From positions 1 through 46,094 of the forward strand of contig JBDRVQ010000013.1 of NCBI GenBank assembly GCA_039801905.1: 46,094 bases of DNA, read 5' to 3'. Numbering within the stretch: the first letter of the stretch is position 1; every line of letters begins with the position of its first letter. Positions 1,172 to 10,844 of the stretch are shown one piece after another. Made by a program: the position numbers and the translations under genes. Under the pieces are notes generated by a model, which was not told the origin of the DNA, made no database searches, and saw only the letters and a list, made by a program, of their open reading frames with translations. Origin of the DNA: a candidate division WOR-3 bacterium (GTDB lineage Bacteria; Hydrothermota; Tepidihabitantia; Tepidihabitantales; JBDRVQ01).

Positions 1172-3037
1172 ATGAAGAAGTTATTAACTCTTTTATTTAT
1201 ATTTGCTCCTCTCTTTCTTTTTAGTTATACGGGTATGGGCGGCGGTCGGGGACATTTTTTCGTTCAGGATGCTTTAACTCAAGGACCGGGTTTCTTGACT
1301 TTAAGTCTTCATACCCTTTCCCGACGCCAAAAGCCTGAGACAAGCTTCTTCTATACCGATATGCTTTTAGCCCTCACCTATTCGCCGATTGACTATTTTG
1401 AAGCATCCCTATCTGGCGGTGGTATCTTTTTAGACTACCCCTTTGAAAATTTTGCTTCTTCTTGGCACGATTTGACCCTTAAAGGGAAATTGACCTTCCC
1501 CTTGATAAAAGTCTTTAAGCCCGGCTTCATTCTCGGTTACAATTTCCCCCGGGATACAGTTTATGACACGCTTGGCTTAGCAGTAAAAAAGGGTTTGGAA
1601 TATACCGGGGCGGTAAACTTAAAATTTTCTGATTTATTTCCACCCTTACCTTCTTTACTCTTCAACTTCGGAAGGTATAAAGATGAATTAGACTCTGGAC
1701 ATACCTATTTCGGCGCCAGTTTGGAATTGGCAGCAAGAAGTCTCCTCTTCTTTGGGGAGTATCATAAGGTAGGCGAACTAACTCGTTTGACACCCGGAAT
1801 AAAAATCTTCTCTCCCAGTCTTTCCTTTGATTTCGGTTGGAGTTTTCTCTTTTTGCCGAATAAGGAGAGAAGGAATCAACTCTCAATCGGTTTCACCTAC
1901 CTCACACCGTTCCTGCGGGTGACCACACCCACCGGAAGGATTGTCGGAAAGGTTTTCTCCGCTACAACCCATCAACCAATCCCAGCCACTATCTCCTTTC
2001 CGGAAAATCCCAAATTGAAGCCAATCGCTAATGACCCAACTACGGGTCTCTATGAGGCGACAAAAATTCCAGAAGGAACAATCGTGGTGGAAGTTTTTAG
2101 TGAAGGTTACTTTAAGGAGTATTTACCAGTAACCGTAAAGAAGGATATGACAATCACTCAGGATTTCTACTTAAAACCGGTGAAGGTATTCGGTCAATTG
2201 GCAGGTAGGGTCTATGAAGCAAATACTGGTAAGCCCTTAGCCGCGCGGCTCTCCTTCCCCAATACCGATCTCCCTCCTATCTTCTCCGACTCGCTCACGG
2301 GTAGCTTCCGTTTATCAGAGGTCCCAACCGGGGTTTTAGTTGTGGAAGCGGAAAAGGAAGGATATTTTAAGCATTCGGTGAGCGCAACCATCAGAGAGAA
2401 TGAATTAACCTCTCTGGAAATCCCCCTCTCGCCATCTCTTTTTGTGAGTGTGGTTACGGGTAAGGTCTCAGACAAAAAGACCGGAGAAGGGATTGCCGCG
2501 GAGATTATATTTGAAGGAGCGGCAATTCCTCCGGTAAGGACTGACCCCAAGACGGGAATTTATCGGGCAGAATTGCCGGTTGGTACCTACACCGCGGTGG
2601 TGAAGGCGGAAAATTATATAACCCAAACCCTGCCGGTAATTGTGGAGAAAGATAAAGTAACCGAGAAGAATTTCTCTCTGGTGAGTGTGGGTATGACTAT
2701 TACCTTAAAGGTCCTCTTTGACTTCAATAAGGCGACAATCAGACCGGAATCCTACCGGCTCTTAGATGAGGCGGCGCAGATTCTAAAAGATAATCCGAAG
2801 ATCAAGGTTGAAATTCAGGGGCATACCGACAATATCGGTTCGGACGCCTACAATCAAAAACTTTCGGAAAGGCGGGCACAGGCGGTGGCTAACTATTTTA
2901 TCAGCCAACACGGAATTGATGAAAAAAGACTCCGGGTTGTTGGCTACGGAGAGACAAAGCCGATTGCCTCTAACGAGACCGAAGAAGGAAGGGCATTAAA
3001 TAGAAGAGTGGAATTTGTGGTCCTCAGCGAAGAGTGA
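1172..3037 (+). CDS. OmpA-family outer-membrane protein with three carboxypeptidase-regulatory-like repeats
   Basis: 621 residues. In order: signal peptide (about 1-18); a beta-strand-rich segment with many alternating aromatic residues (about 25-250), probably an outer-membrane barrel; three carboxypeptidase-regulatory-like beta-sandwich repeats (about 256-338, 345-425, 429-508), each containing a GxVxxxxTGxPI-like start and a VVEVxxEGY-like core; and a C-terminal OmpA peptidoglycan-binding domain (about 510-621). The last domain shows VLFDFNKATIRPES, IQGHTDN and the NRRVEF ending typical of the family. It probably anchors the outer membrane to peptidoglycan, which fits the peptidoglycan-active genes immediately downstream. 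The start has a GGGGGAG ribosome binding site. The stop overlaps the next gene (TGATG). Confidence 0.9.
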   Translation: MKKLLTLLFIFAPLFLFSYTGMGGGRGHFFVQDALTQGPGFLTLSLHTLSRRQKPETSFFYTDMLLALTYSPIDYFEASLSGGGIFLDYPFENFASSWHDLTLKGKLTFPLIKVFKPGFILGYNFPRDTVYDTLGLAVKKGLEYTGAVNLKFSDLFPPLPSLLFNFGRYKDELDSGHTYFGASLELAARSLLFFGEYHKVGELTRLTPGIKIFSPSLSFDFGWSFLFLPNKERRNQLSIGFTYLTPFLRVTTPTGRIVGKVFSATTHQPIPATISFPENPKLKPIANDPTTGLYEATKIPEGTIVVEVFSEGYFKEYLPVTVKKDMTITQDFYLKPVKVFGQLAGRVYEANTGKPLAARLSFPNTDLPPIFSDSLTGSFRLSEVPTGVLVVEAEKEGYFKHSVSATIRENELTSLEIPLSPSLFVSVVTGKVSDKKTGEGIAAEIIFEGAAIPPVRTDPKTGIYRAELPVGTYTAVVKAENYITQTLPVIVEKDKVTEKNFSLVSVGMTITLKVLFDFNKATIRPESYRLLDEAAQILKDNPKIKVEIQGHTDNIGSDAYNQKLSERRAQAVANYFISQHGIDEKRLRVVGYGETKPIASNETEEGRALNRRVEFVVLSEE

Positions 3038-3891
3038 TGGGAATTGGCTTAACTCTCTTTCTCTTCTCCTTTCGCCTCCTCATTGGTGGTTTGGAATACG
3101 AATGGGGGGTTATTGGCCGTTTCCTTCTCCCCGAAGAGAAGATGGCGATAAAGATTCTCGCTGATGAGGAAAATTGCCATTTCGGTTGGATAATGTCGGA
3201 TGGTGAATTGGCGGATGTCTCCCCTACGGAAAAAGTATACATCGCCCCTTCTCAGCCCGGTTTTTATACGATAGTGGTTTCTGATGGTAAAGAGAGGAAG
3301 CGAATTAATATCTTTGTTATGCATCCCTTCTCCTGCCTCAAAAATCGGAAACTGAACGGATTTCTGATTGGTCGTTATCCAAGTTTTTCCCCCCACCCTA
3401 ACTTACAAGGGGTGAAGGGTTTTATAGAACTGAAAAAAGAGTGGGAGGATATCTTCGTCTCCCCTCACTATCAGATAAAAGAGTTTACCCATACTCCCTA
3501 CCTCACCCTGCGGGAGGAGTTGGTTTATAAGTTAGAACTCTTAAACGAGAAGGTCGCCTCTCGCTACGGAGTTGAGAAATTAAAGATTGTCTCCGGCTTC
3601 CGGACGCCAGCCAAGAATTACAATGCTGGGGGCGGTAGAAATAGTGCCCATATCTACGGAGGCGCCGCGGATGTGACTCTTGATGCCGATGGGGATGGCG
3701 ATATTGATGACTTAAACCGGGATGGCCGGCGAAATAGCCGGGATTCTAAACTTATTTGCTCCTTGGTGGAAGAATTGGATAACGAGTTGGCGAATAAATA
3801 TCCCCAACTGGTGGGCGGTTTGGGCTGGTATCGCCGGCGGGATTTTATCCACATTGATGTGAGGGGGAAAAAGGATCGCTGGCGAAGATAG
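3037..3891 (+). CDS. M15-family (VanY/DacA-like) D,D-peptidase, exported
   Basis: 284 residues with a hydrophobic N-terminus (GIGLTLFLFSFRLLIGG). A middle segment (about 30-95) looks like an Ig-like beta domain. The C-terminal half carries the M15 zinc signature: SGFRTPAKNYNAGG, NSAHIYGGAADV (His and Asp ligands) and DFIHIDVRG (the last His). The insertion DADGDGDIDDLNRDGRRNSR between them looks like a calcium-binding loop. Family members cleave D-Ala-D-Ala or other peptide-stem bonds of peptidoglycan. ATG at 3037 overlaps the OmpA stop (TGATG) and has GAAGAG upstream; a GTG at 3034 is possible. The two L,D-transpeptidase-like genes follow at once, making a wall-remodelling group. Confidence 0.87.
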   Translation: MGIGLTLFLFSFRLLIGGLEYEWGVIGRFLLPEEKMAIKILADEENCHFGWIMSDGELADVSPTEKVYIAPSQPGFYTIVVSDGKERKRINIFVMHPFSCLKNRKLNGFLIGRYPSFSPHPNLQGVKGFIELKKEWEDIFVSPHYQIKEFTHTPYLTLREELVYKLELLNEKVASRYGVEKLKIVSGFRTPAKNYNAGGGRNSAHIYGGAADVTLDADGDGDIDDLNRDGRRNSRDSKLICSLVEELDNELANKYPQLVGGLGWYRRRDFIHIDVRGKKDRWRR

Positions 3892-3895
3892 AAGA

Positions 3896-4570
3896 GTGCC
3901 CGTCCATCTCACATCCTTCCTTCTCCTCCTCTTCTCCTTCTTCCTTTTTTTCTTAGGGGAATTAATCTTCCCCTTAGAAAGGAGCATCCGTTTTAATATC
4001 ATCGCCCGGGGAAAGGCGATTATCAATTACCGAAAAGGGATTAAGGAATTGAAAGAAGAGTTGAAAAGAAGTAAAGAGAGGCTTTCGCTTTTGGAAAGCG
4101 AAGCCGAGAGTCTAAAAGTTATCCCAGAGGAGGACTATTTGGTTATTGACCTTCTAAGGAATCGCCTCTTTTGGAAAAAAGGGGAAAAGACCTTACGCGA
4201 GATTTTAATCTCCACCGGCCGGGGAGATTCTTTAATTTCCGGGAAGAAAAAGTGGGTCTTTAAGACACCGACCGGAATTCTCCGCATCTTATGGAAGATA
4301 AAAAATCCAATTTGGTATAAACCGGATTGGGCTTTCCTGGAGGAGAAGAAACCAATTCCCCCTCCCAATTCTAAAGAGAGGTTGGTTCGGGGAATGCTTG
4401 GAGATTATGCCTTGGACTTGGGAGGAGGGATTCTAATCCACGGTACGCCTTATGAACATCTCTTAGGAAGAAGCGTCAGTCACGGTTGCATCCGGGTGGG
4501 TAAGGAAGATATTAAATTTCTATATGAGAACTGCCCGGTGGGAATGAAGGTTTATATTTATGGGAGATAG
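3896..4570 (+). CDS. L,D-transpeptidase (YkuD domain), membrane-anchored
   Basis: 224 residues from GTG 3896, 4 nt after the M15 gene. A membrane segment (about 5-22, LTSFLLLLFSFFLFFLGEL) is followed by a short charged coiled coil (about 47-72) and a YkuD domain. The active-site signature is intact: IHGTPYEHLLGRSVSHGCIR, with the two His residues and the catalytic Cys. These enzymes make 3-3 cross-links in peptidoglycan or attach proteins to it, acting in the periplasm. The end overlaps the next gene by 11 nt, and that gene is a diverged copy of this one. Confidence 0.88.
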   Translation: MPVHLTSFLLLLFSFFLFFLGELIFPLERSIRFNIIARGKAIINYRKGIKELKEELKRSKERLSLLESEAESLKVIPEEDYLVIDLLRNRLFWKKGEKTLREILISTGRGDSLISGKKKWVFKTPTGILRILWKIKNPIWYKPDWAFLEEKKPIPPPNSKERLVRGMLGDYALDLGGGILIHGTPYEHLLGRSVSHGCIRVGKEDIKFLYENCPVGMKVYIYGR

Positions 4571-5207
4571 GAGAAGTTTCTTCTTCATCATTGCCGCCTT
4601 TTTATTTAGTCTCTCACTCATTCGGCTCTTTGAGGGGATAATCAAAAGAGAATTGAGAAGCGAATGGGAAGACCTGAAGGAGGAATATGCCCTTCTTCTT
4701 AAAGAGAAGGAGCAATTGGAAGAGGAGATAAAAAGGAGAGAAGGAGAGAAGATACTTTTGTCTTTGCAGAAGGAGACGGCAGCAAAGAAAGAGCCTTACT
4801 TACGAATCAACCGGAAAGATAAAATTGCCCAACTAAAAATGGAGGATAAAACCCTAAGAGAGATGCGTTTTTCCGTAAAGGGAAGGAGAGCGATTGCCGG
4901 AGAGGTGCTTTTGCCGAGTGGTATCTTACAGGTGAAAGAAAAGATGGCTGGGGTTTCTTTTTATATCCCCGATTGGATTTATGAATTATTGGGCAAGGAG
5001 ATACCTCAGGATACTTTAACTCGGAAGGTAAAAGATGCCTTTGGCAAATACTGCCTCTCTTTGGGTGGCGATATCTGCCTTTCGGGAAAGATAAGGGAGG
5101 AAGTACCGGATGGCGCCTTAGACTTAATTTATTTAGAGTTTGAGGATGGAGACATTGAGGCGATTTATAATACACTAAAAGATGGTGCTTCGGTCTTTTT
5201 CTATTGA
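4560..5207 (+). CDS. Catalytically dead L,D-transpeptidase paralogue, membrane-anchored
   Basis: 215 residues with the same plan as the preceding gene: membrane segment (about 6-24), charged coiled coil (about 30-75), then a YkuD-like fold. The copies can be aligned by eye: DKTLREMRFS matches EKTLREILIS, LPSGILQV matches TPTGILRI, FYIPDWIYELL matches IWYKPDWAFLE, and YCLSLGGDICLSG matches YALDLGGGILIHG. The catalytic His (IHG to LSG) and the SHGCIR motif (LDLIYLEF at that place) are gone. It is therefore predicted to be a pseudoenzyme, perhaps a partner or regulator of its active neighbour. The reading frame is intact and codon use is normal, so it is not a decaying gene. The stop TGA lies inside the -35 box of the next promoter. 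Confidence 0.75.
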   Translation: MGDRRSFFFIIAAFLFSLSLIRLFEGIIKRELRSEWEDLKEEYALLLKEKEQLEEEIKRREGEKILLSLQKETAAKKEPYLRINRKDKIAQLKMEDKTLREMRFSVKGRRAIAGEVLLPSGILQVKEKMAGVSFYIPDWIYELLGKEIPQDTLTRKVKDAFGKYCLSLGGDICLSGKIREEVPDGALDLIYLEFEDGDIEAIYNTLKDGASVFFY

Positions 5208-8386: not shown

Positions 8387-9352
8387 ATGAAAAGAATCTT
8401 TCTCCTGGTGTTCTTCCTCTCCTGCCTTCCGGAGCGAGATAACCCCTATGACCCCAATTCGGATTTTTTCAAGAAAAAGACGACCCTCTCCGGCCTCTGT
8501 CAAAATCGGATTGGTGTGCCAATTCCGGATTGTTGGATAAAGGTTTTACCCCTTCGGGGCAACACCGTCTATTTGACAAAAACGGACCAAAGGGGAAGAT
8601 ACGAACTAAAGGATTGCCCCGCGGAAAGTGTCTTAATAATTGGGGAAAAGGAAGGTTTTGTGCCGGAATCGGTTTTCACTTATTTAGAGGTCTATAAAGG
8701 AGAGACCATAAATTTTATCTTGGAGGGTTTACCAAAATTTGTCAACCATTCCCTCTTCTCTTTCTTTGTCTCCCGCCATATCCCCCGTGACTCTTCTGTT
8801 TTAAGTTTAAAGTGCGAATTAGAAGATCCAGAAGGAATAGGGGATATCAAAAAGGTATTTGCGACAATTGAAGGACTTTCCGACACCTTGCCTTTGGCTT
8901 TTAAGTTCGGCTCTACTTATGAAAATTTCTTCTTAGAAGAGAGCCTTTCTCAAAACTTGGAGGAGATTAGTGGTCGGGAGTTTTATCTTATCGCCAGTGA
9001 CCTCTTTGGGCATTATGTCCAATCTTCACCCCTTCGGCTCATTCGGGTGATTAGAAATCCTCCGGAACCAATTTCCCCTGCTGGCGGCGATAGTGTCTCT
9101 TGCCATCCATTACTTGTTTGGCAACTCCCCCGCTATCTCTTCTCCTATTCCCAATTTATTGAAATCTATCTCATTCGGCCCAATTTAGAGCCGATCCTTT
9201 ATCTGCGCTCCGAAAACATTCCTCCCGGGGATACCTCTTTCTTTGTGGCGGAATCCTTAATCGACGGTTATTACTATTGGCAAGTTGGGATTAAAGATTC
9301 TTATAACAATTGGGCAAAATCGGCGGAGGCGGTATTTAGGGTGGGGGGATAA
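8387..9352 (+). CDS. Lipoprotein with a carboxypeptidase-regulatory-like domain
   Basis: 321 residues. The lipobox is FFLSC (Cys13), followed by LPERDNPYDPNSDF, a start motif I associate with lipoproteins of WOR-3-like and related candidate phyla. Residues about 33-115 form a carboxypeptidase-regulatory-like beta-sandwich (GLCQNRIGVPIPDCWI, DQRGRYELKDCP). The C-terminal part (about 235-321) resembles a fibronectin/Ig-like domain (PISPAGGDSVSCHPLLVWQL, GYYYWQVGIKDSYNNWAKS). It is the first gene of an operon with a sigma-54 activator (1 nt downstream) and a PEGA kinase, so an envelope-sensing role is a reasonable inference. Translation is predicted to be leaderless. Confidence 0.85.
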   Translation: MKRIFLLVFFLSCLPERDNPYDPNSDFFKKKTTLSGLCQNRIGVPIPDCWIKVLPLRGNTVYLTKTDQRGRYELKDCPAESVLIIGEKEGFVPESVFTYLEVYKGETINFILEGLPKFVNHSLFSFFVSRHIPRDSSVLSLKCELEDPEGIGDIKKVFATIEGLSDTLPLAFKFGSTYENFFLEESLSQNLEEISGREFYLIASDLFGHYVQSSPLRLIRVIRNPPEPISPAGGDSVSCHPLLVWQLPRYLFSYSQFIEIYLIRPNLEPILYLRSENIPPGDTSFFVAESLIDGYYYWQVGIKDSYNNWAKSAEAVFRVGG

Positions 9353-9353
9353 A

Positions 9354-10844
9354 ATGGATAAGACCTTTGAACTAACTCGGGAAAGGCTCTCCGTCCTCCA
9401 CCAAATTGCCACCACCATTAATTCAATTTTGGACTATGGGGAACTATTAGAAAAAATAATGGATCTCTGCCTTGAGACCTTAAATGCCGAAAGGGGGGTG
9501 ATTGTCTTAAAGGAAAAAGATACCTTTCTACCGGTGACCGCTCGGGATAAAAGGGAAGGGAATTTGGACGATATAAAACGAGTCTCTCGGAGTATCATTG
9601 AAGAGGTGATTAAAACGGGAAGACCAATCCTTTTACACAGTGCCTTAGAGAGTGAGTTTCAAGCAAAGGAGAGTGTGATCTTATCTAAGATCCAGTCGGT
9701 TATGGCTTGTCCCTTAAAGAAGCGGGAGGAGATAATTGGGGCAATCTATTGTGATTCCCTTTCCCGAAAGGGCCTCTTCACCCAGGAGGATTTAGAATTC
9801 TTACTTGCCTTTTCTAACCTCTGCGCTATTGCCATTGAAAATGCTCGGTTTCGGGAGATGCTTCTGGATGAAAATATCTATCTCCGAAGGGAAATTGCCT
9901 CCTTCTATGCTTTTGAGAATATCATCGGCGAGAGTAAGAAGATGCAAGAAATCTTCTCTCTCTTGAAGAAGATAAGTGGCACCGATGTTAATGTCTTAAT
10001 CTACGGCGAATCGGGAACGGGGAAGGAGTTAGTCGCCAAAGCGATTCATTATTCCAGCCCCCGGCGGACAAAGAAGTTTGTACCTCTATATTGTGGCTCC
10101 CTTCCGGAGACCTTATTAGAATCCGAACTTTTCGGTTATAAAAAGGGAAGTTTCACCGGTGCCTTAACCGATAAAAAGGGACTAATGGAAGAAGCAGATG
10201 GTGGAACCCTCTTTCTGGATGAAGTGGCGGACATCCCTTTACCGATTCAAGCAAAACTCCTTCGTTTCTTACAGGAAGGGGAAATCCGAAGGATTGGTGA
10301 GACCGAATCCCGAAAGGTTGATTGTCGGATAATTGCTGCCACCAATCGGGACTTAAAAGAAGAGATAAAAAAGAAAAACTTCCGAGAGGATTTATTTTAT
10401 CGTCTCAATGTCCTAACAATTACTTTACCACCTCTCCGGGAGAGAGGGGAAGATATTATTCTCCTCACCAAATATTTTATTAAGCGATTTGCGGAGAAGT
10501 ACAATAAGAAAATTAGTGGCATTAGCCCTGATGCCTTAAAATTGATTCGGGCCTATCCCTGGCCGGGAAATGTCCGGGAATTAGAAAATACCATTGCCCG
10601 GGCGGTCTCCTTGGCTGATGGAGAGATAATTAGACCTGAGGATTTGAAATTAGAAATCTCGGAGGAAGAGAAAAAGGTGGTAGAAAGTCTAAAGGAGACC
10701 TTGCGCTTGACCGAAAAGGAGAAAATTATTTCCGCCCTTCGCCAATGCGGGGGCAATAAAACGGAGGCGGCAAAACTCTTAGGAATTTCTCGAAGGACTT
10801 TATACTATAAGATGGATGAGTTGGGGATTAAAGATGAAAAATAA
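9354..10844 (+). CDS. Sigma-54-dependent transcriptional activator (GAF, AAA+, Fis-type HTH)
   Basis: 496 residues from ATG 9354 (GGGGGG upstream). A GAF sensor domain (about 1-170) replaces the usual phospho-receiver. The AAA+ domain (about 188-420) shows Walker A YGESGTGKE, the sigma-54 contact loop as GSFTGA (GAFTGA variant), Walker B GGTLFLDEV and FREDLFYRLNVL. A Fis-type helix-turn-helix ends the protein (GGNKTEAAKLLGISRRTLYY). Such proteins bind upstream DNA and use ATP to open sigma-54 promoters. Two near-consensus sigma-54 promoters occur within 3.5 kb downstream, and rpoN is at 38.6-40.0 kb, so local regulation is a strong inference. The GAF ligand is unknown; the adjacent kinase may feed into it. 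Confidence 0.93.
   Translation: MDKTFELTRERLSVLHQIATTINSILDYGELLEKIMDLCLETLNAERGVIVLKEKDTFLPVTARDKREGNLDDIKRVSRSIIEEVIKTGRPILLHSALESEFQAKESVILSKIQSVMACPLKKREEIIGAIYCDSLSRKGLFTQEDLEFLLAFSNLCAIAIENARFREMLLDENIYLRREIASFYAFENIIGESKKMQEIFSLLKKISGTDVNVLIYGESGTGKELVAKAIHYSSPRRTKKFVPLYCGSLPETLLESELFGYKKGSFTGALTDKKGLMEEADGGTLFLDEVADIPLPIQAKLLRFLQEGEIRRIGETESRKVDCRIIAATNRDLKEEIKKKNFREDLFYRLNVLTITLPPLRERGEDIILLTKYFIKRFAEKYNKKISGISPDALKLIRAYPWPGNVRELENTIARAVSLADGEIIRPEDLKLEISEEEKKVVESLKETLRLTEKEKIISALRQCGGNKTEAAKLLGISRRTLYYKMDELGIKDEK

Follow-up and report, generated by a model that had tools for sequence, protein, structure and literature searches.

Genes at the locus

The window, by which we mean the whole 46,094-nucleotide stretch of DNA analysed here, carries the genes for an OmpA-like protein, an M15 peptidase, a YkuD-type L,D-transpeptidase (LDT) and a pseudo-L,D-transpeptidase (PSE). 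These are listed in Table 1 together with the residues and segments discussed below. LDT–PSE pairs were found in 15 genomes spanning four families (f1 to f4), and comparisons were made within the same order or phylum.

Table 1. Coordinates of the genes and protein features in the window
Feature	Position	Strand	Remarks
OmpA-like outer-membrane protein	1172..3037	+	Overlaps M15 gene; OmpA domain E=2e-29
M15 (MepK-like) zinc peptidase	3034..3891	+	4 nt upstream of LDT; Peptidase_M15_3 E=7.6e-11
LDT, YkuD L,D-transpeptidase	3896..4570	+	224 aa, GTG start; identified by Pfam YkuD and motif residues
LDT Glu22, end of membrane anchor	3959..3961	+	Invariant, 15/15
LDT His182 of IHG motif	4439..4441	+	Invariant, 15/15 orthologues
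LDT Ser195-His196-Gly197-Cys198, catalytic motif	4478..4489	+	Invariant in 15 orthologues except at 195, which is S or T
PSE, pseudo-L,D-transpeptidase	4560..5207	+	215 aa; LDT paralogue, predicted YkuD fold, in 15 genomes
PSE membrane-proximal helix, R-x-x-D/E-x-x-x-K	4617..4658	+	Arg22 and Lys29 invariant; residue 25 acidic
PSE capping-loop region, P137-D-W-I-Y141-x-L143-x-G145	4968..4994	+	Top-conserved 14-residue windows start at 132-138
PSE Ser175, at IHG-His position	5082..5084	+	His in f2/f3, Cys in f4, Ser in window
PSE Asp188-Leu189-Ile190-Tyr191, at SHGC position	5121..5132	+	Tyr where catalytic Cys stood

The sequence-only reading had taken LDT and PSE to be two real, overlapping and related frames, and this was confirmed. 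The two frames share 11 nt in the window (ATGGGAGATAG), the window proteins align with 30% identity over 144 aa (E=1e-12), and alignment of the LDT family profile with the PSE family profile covers 181 columns with E=1.1e-24.

LDT matches the Pfam YkuD model with E=1.9e-24 (87.3 bits against a cut-off of 23.4), and is the only match to PF03734 in the 1.7-Mb genome to which the window belongs. Its architecture appears to be an N-terminal membrane anchor followed by a helical linker and then the YkuD domain. The window protein has H182 and then S195-H196-G197-C198-I199-R200 (HG...SHGCIR), so sharing the HG...[ST]HGC[IV]R motif of known YkuD-type LDTs, and the catalytic His and the [ST]HGC motif are present in 15/15 orthologues. 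Judged by this intact catalytic motif, LDT would be an L,D-transpeptidase of the active type. In its membrane-proximal part E22, P26 and R46 are invariant in the 15 orthologues, while the membrane-proximal window as a whole ranks only 147 of 211 in conservation.

Fold, residue losses and constraint in PSE

PSE falls below the Pfam YkuD cut-off, with one of the 15 members matching at E=0.037 and the rest not at all, and searches of the sequences of solved structures with PSE gave no credible match. An AlphaFold2 model, for which the input was an alignment of PSE sequences alone with no LDT rows, has a mean pLDDT of 86.4. The top-ranked PDB matches of this model in Foldseek are L,D-transpeptidases (5uwv, E=4e-6, probability 1.00), and B. 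subtilis YkuD (1y7m) is matched with E=2e-5. PSE is thus predicted to have a YkuD fold, and since the best-ranked PDB matches of its model are L,D-transpeptidases, a non-YkuD fold is rejected. The fold had been set as a test of the original proposal, and the second protein passed it. The fold of LDT, and that predicted for PSE, is the one found in B. subtilis YkuD, mycobacterial Ldt2 and the Klebsiella LDT 4lzh. Unlike known YkuD-type LDTs, however, PSE has no catalytic Cys, lies under the Pfam cut-off and is a fixed neighbour of an LDT.

At the motif sites the window PSE has S175-G176 and D188-L189-I190-Y191-L192-E193. Across the families the Cys position holds Tyr (f1 and f3), Ala (f4) or Gly (f2), and Cys itself is found in none of the 14 readable copies. 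At the site of the SHGC His, f2 and f3 still have His, the window has Leu and f4 has Phe. The claim that the second copy had lost both the catalytic Cys and His therefore held for Cys in 14/14 copies, but not for His, of which f2 and f3 retain both. Because these two families still have both His, loss of the nucleophile is the defining change in PSE, and the two His were lost later, in the PSE of f1 and f4. In f3 the former active-site residues H, G, D, H and Y are all invariant in a domain where only 43 of 140 positions (31%) are so, suggesting that the pocket remains important in this family.

The window PSE is 30-41% identical to the other PSE copies. Within the family the strongest constraint falls on the capping loop and the membrane-proximal helix. 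The 14-residue windows starting at residues 17-19 are in the top ten of 202, and that starting at 20 ranks 15. P137, Y141, L143, G145 and R155 are invariant in all 15 copies and D138 is nearly so, the label 'capping loop' being given by alignment position and not from a solved complex.

In LDT and PSE alike, conservation is lowest in the linker. PSE is predicted to have a long helix (H3-75), and by a crude test heptad repeats beyond those of shuffled sequences were found in the PSE linkers of 3/15 homologues at p<0.05; by the same crude test, the LDT linkers beat their shuffles in 13/15 at p<0.02. The earlier suggestion of a heterodimer formed through coiled coils is accordingly weak, given a PSE linker which is poorly conserved and without consistent heptads. 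The membrane-proximal segment seems the better candidate for a contact.

The pair and the M15 peptidase across genomes

Relatives of PSE are present in 15 of the 28 genomes of the WOR-3 order, and LDT orthologues in those same 15; the other 13 have neither. In every one of the 15 the two genes are adjacent on the same strand in the order LDT then PSE. Thirteen genomes show an overlap, of 1, 4 or 11 nt; in the other two the genes are spaced by 7 and 145 nt. These counts are of genomes and not of independent gain or loss events on a species tree, and the co-occurrence could stem from inheritance of a shared operon in related genomes. The PSE profile gave no matches in 119 other genomes of the phylum, many of which encode other YkuD proteins. 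One pattern scan of GTDB r220, non-exhaustive outside the phylum, gave nine PSE loci, eight titled WOR-3 and one titled 'uncultured bacterium' (L105); no relatives were found in viral contigs, with the same limit on the scan.

The sequence-only reading had argued that PSE is a kept pseudoenzyme, and had named frame decay in relatives as what would tell against it. No decay was seen: none of the 15 copies has an internal stop, and that of G024 is truncated where its contig ends. For pairs within a genus that gave a finite dS, the Nei-Gojobori dN/dS of PSE lies in the range 0.09-0.29, compared with 0.09-0.20 for LDT and 0.15-0.24 for M15. The constraint on PSE is slightly below that on the enzyme, yet far from neutral. 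In a maximum likelihood tree with the phylum's other YkuD proteins as outgroup, the PSE copies group as one clade with support 100/100, its stem measuring 1.68 changes per column. This clade splits into f1/f2/f4 and f3, matching the split in LDT, the LDT rows themselves not being resolved as one clade. As the PSE copies are a single clade, the duplication is older than the sampled families. The simplest reading of the tree would be one duplication before these families diverged, rapid divergence when catalysis was lost, and constraint thereafter. Co-occurrence, open frames, dN/dS, the single clade and the predicted fold together strongly support retention of PSE.

Recurrence of the pair beside an M15 peptidase, which had also been proposed as a check, was seen in part. 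The M15 family was found in 14 of the 15 pair-bearing genomes and directly precedes the pair in 11, these being from f1 and f3. In f4, however, the M15 gene lies elsewhere in the genome, unlinked to the pair, and the profile gave no M15 match in the single f2 genome, which is 82% complete. Among the 13 pair-less genomes, the M15 profile is matched in just two: weakly (E=3.6e-5) in G010, and in G021 by a fragment where the contig stops. The HxxGxAxD motif is invariant in 11 homologues and the His of the final HxD is present in 10 of them. The exception is the M15 of G017 (L064 1389-2333), where the last zinc-ligand His of FIHxD is Gln, and this copy may therefore be inactive or altered.

Aligned with E. 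coli MepK by hhalign, the M15 family profile gives E=1.2e-4 and a probability of 54.6% over 68 columns, which cover SGYR, HxxGxAxD and the final HxD. MepK is an LD-specific endopeptidase (PMC12729407). The MepK-like profile, the adjacency to an LDT and the LD specificity of MepK support a putative role for M15 in turnover of 3-3 cross-links.

Two genomes of the same class but outside the order have the same M15 family adjoining an LdtD/YcbB-like LDT of ∼583 aa. In these WOR-3 proteins (G057 and G048; L157 1070-3823 and L158 1001-3732), SSGCI replaces SHGC. An Asp-rich insert (DADGDGDIDDLNRDGRRNSRD in the window), resembling the calcium-binding loop of an EF-hand or dockerin, lies between the M15 zinc motifs. 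It is conserved in the 11 linked homologues and in the two class-level relatives, and is shortened in f4.

The arrangement is comparable to ldtD-mepK of E. coli, where an LDT gene likewise adjoins an M15 peptidase gene. It differs in that the LDT here is small, membrane-anchored and not LdtD-like, in the addition of a pseudo-LDT, and in the Asp-rich insert that most of the M15 homologues have.

A putative non-catalytic partner for LDT

We consider it fairly probable that PSE is a dedicated pseudoenzyme partner of LDT in a module for remodelling 3-3 cross-links, a reading drawn from sequence comparison and the predicted fold. An ancestral YkuD LDT gene was duplicated before the sampled families of the order split; one copy lost its nucleophilic Cys while keeping the predicted fold, and the PSE gene has since stayed directly behind LDT under purifying selection. 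Both proteins are probably signal-anchored in the inner membrane, and would be made together through translational coupling at the overlapping stop and start. PSE may then contact LDT, most likely by the membrane-proximal helices (Glu22 and Pro26 of LDT; Arg22, Asp/Glu25 and Lys29 of PSE). The presence of opposite invariant charges at a similar membrane depth suggests such a helix contact, although the invariant charges could serve a different membrane protein. The conserved capping-loop face of PSE may also touch LDT. As a non-catalytic subunit, PSE would position or activate LDT, and its residual cleft perhaps holds the acceptor peptide stem. If M15 cuts 3-3 cross-links, as its likeness to MepK would suggest, then LDT, PSE and M15 would form a module which makes, controls and cuts LD cross-links. 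The more specific form of this proposal, that LDT is a two-subunit enzyme, an obligate heterodimer of an active and a dead subunit that is joined by the membrane-proximal helices and has its acceptor stem held by the dead one, is put forward only tentatively.

PSE could instead be an inhibitor or brake, a competitor or heterodimer partner that restrains LD cross-linking until a signal is received, and the same data on pairing, coupling and selection can be cited for this. A pure brake would, however, be expected to be lost occasionally with the enzyme retained, and this was seen in none of the 15 genomes, which is a small sample. Because no genome keeps LDT without PSE we prefer activation to inhibition, and regard a brake as decidedly improbable. 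It is also unlikely, if somewhat easier to entertain, that PSE makes no contact with LDT at all and is instead an inner-membrane-anchored binder of peptidoglycan stems, which it would read or tether by means of what remains of the YkuD cleft, being co-expressed with LDT only since both act on the same stems. The invariant capping-loop residues, and the invariant pseudo-active-site of f3, are as expected if ligand binding was retained. Against this, the His and adjacent pocket residues are changed in f1 and f4 (to S/L and C/F), so that the pocket is not kept everywhere, and stem binding does not specifically predict either the strict pairing with one LDT or the membrane-proximal charges.

Two further explanations concern the loss of Cys itself. 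PSE might catalyse an altered reaction with another nucleophile, for which the Tyr at the Cys site in f1 and f3 and the two His retained in f2 and f3 could be cited; with Ala at this site in f4 and Gly in f2, no replacement nucleophile is common to all families, and we think this very unlikely. That PSE is a functionless, decaying duplicate, a reading to which the lost Cys and the long stem branch (1.68 changes per column) might lend themselves, can be given almost no weight: it is refuted by 15 open frames in four families, by dN/dS of 0.09-0.29 and by the invariant motifs.

L,D-transpeptidases underlie resistance to many beta-lactams, and they also anchor the outer membrane to the cell wall. 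To our knowledge, how they are activated at the correct site is largely an open question. A natural pair of one active and one dead copy such as LDT and PSE makes it possible to test directly if the enzyme can be positioned or activated by a second YkuD domain. There are partial parallels in other cell-wall enzymes. The degenerate LytM proteins EnvC, NlpD and ActS, which activate amidases (PMC8360153), are likewise cell-wall enzyme domains that have lost their catalytic residues and become dedicated regulators. They differ from PSE in fold and in target enzyme, and in that regulator and regulated enzyme are not tandem paralogues there. DpaA (LdtF) resembles PSE as a YkuD protein that has departed from transpeptidation, but it is a hydrolase in which the catalytic Cys143 is retained (PMC10653827). 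Among the open-access papers searched we found no paired YkuD pseudoenzyme, and a term search in a 2025 LDT review gave no inactive LDT partner. The pairing thus suggests that LDT has a dedicated non-catalytic partner, such as has not been described for LDTs in the open-access papers searched. Should the two-subunit arrangement be true, no YkuD-family pseudoenzyme with a regulatory or structural role would have been described before PSE. Other bacteria may have similar partners that are missed because the Pfam YkuD model does not see them.

The sequence-only reading had further suggested that the pair regulates cross-linking or tethering of the OmpA-like protein encoded upstream, and for tethering we found no support. 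OmpA relatives are present in 28/28 genomes of the order, the pair-less ones included, and within the order none lies near an LDT–PSE pair outside the window. The OmpA-like gene is a local neighbour, outside the conserved pair. As the family occurs in all 28 genomes and is near the pair only in the window, the OmpA-like protein is unlikely to be a specific target. An OmpA-like gene adjoins M15 in f1 and f4 only. In f4 (L155, L156 and G003:C26 36866-39605) the OmpA-like and M15 genes form a separate conserved pair, and it is only in the window's family that an OmpA–M15 pair is joined to LDT–PSE. Elsewhere in the window, the ORF at 9285-10844 resembles a GAF-domain, sigma-54-type transcriptional activator, as judged from its translation by eye only.
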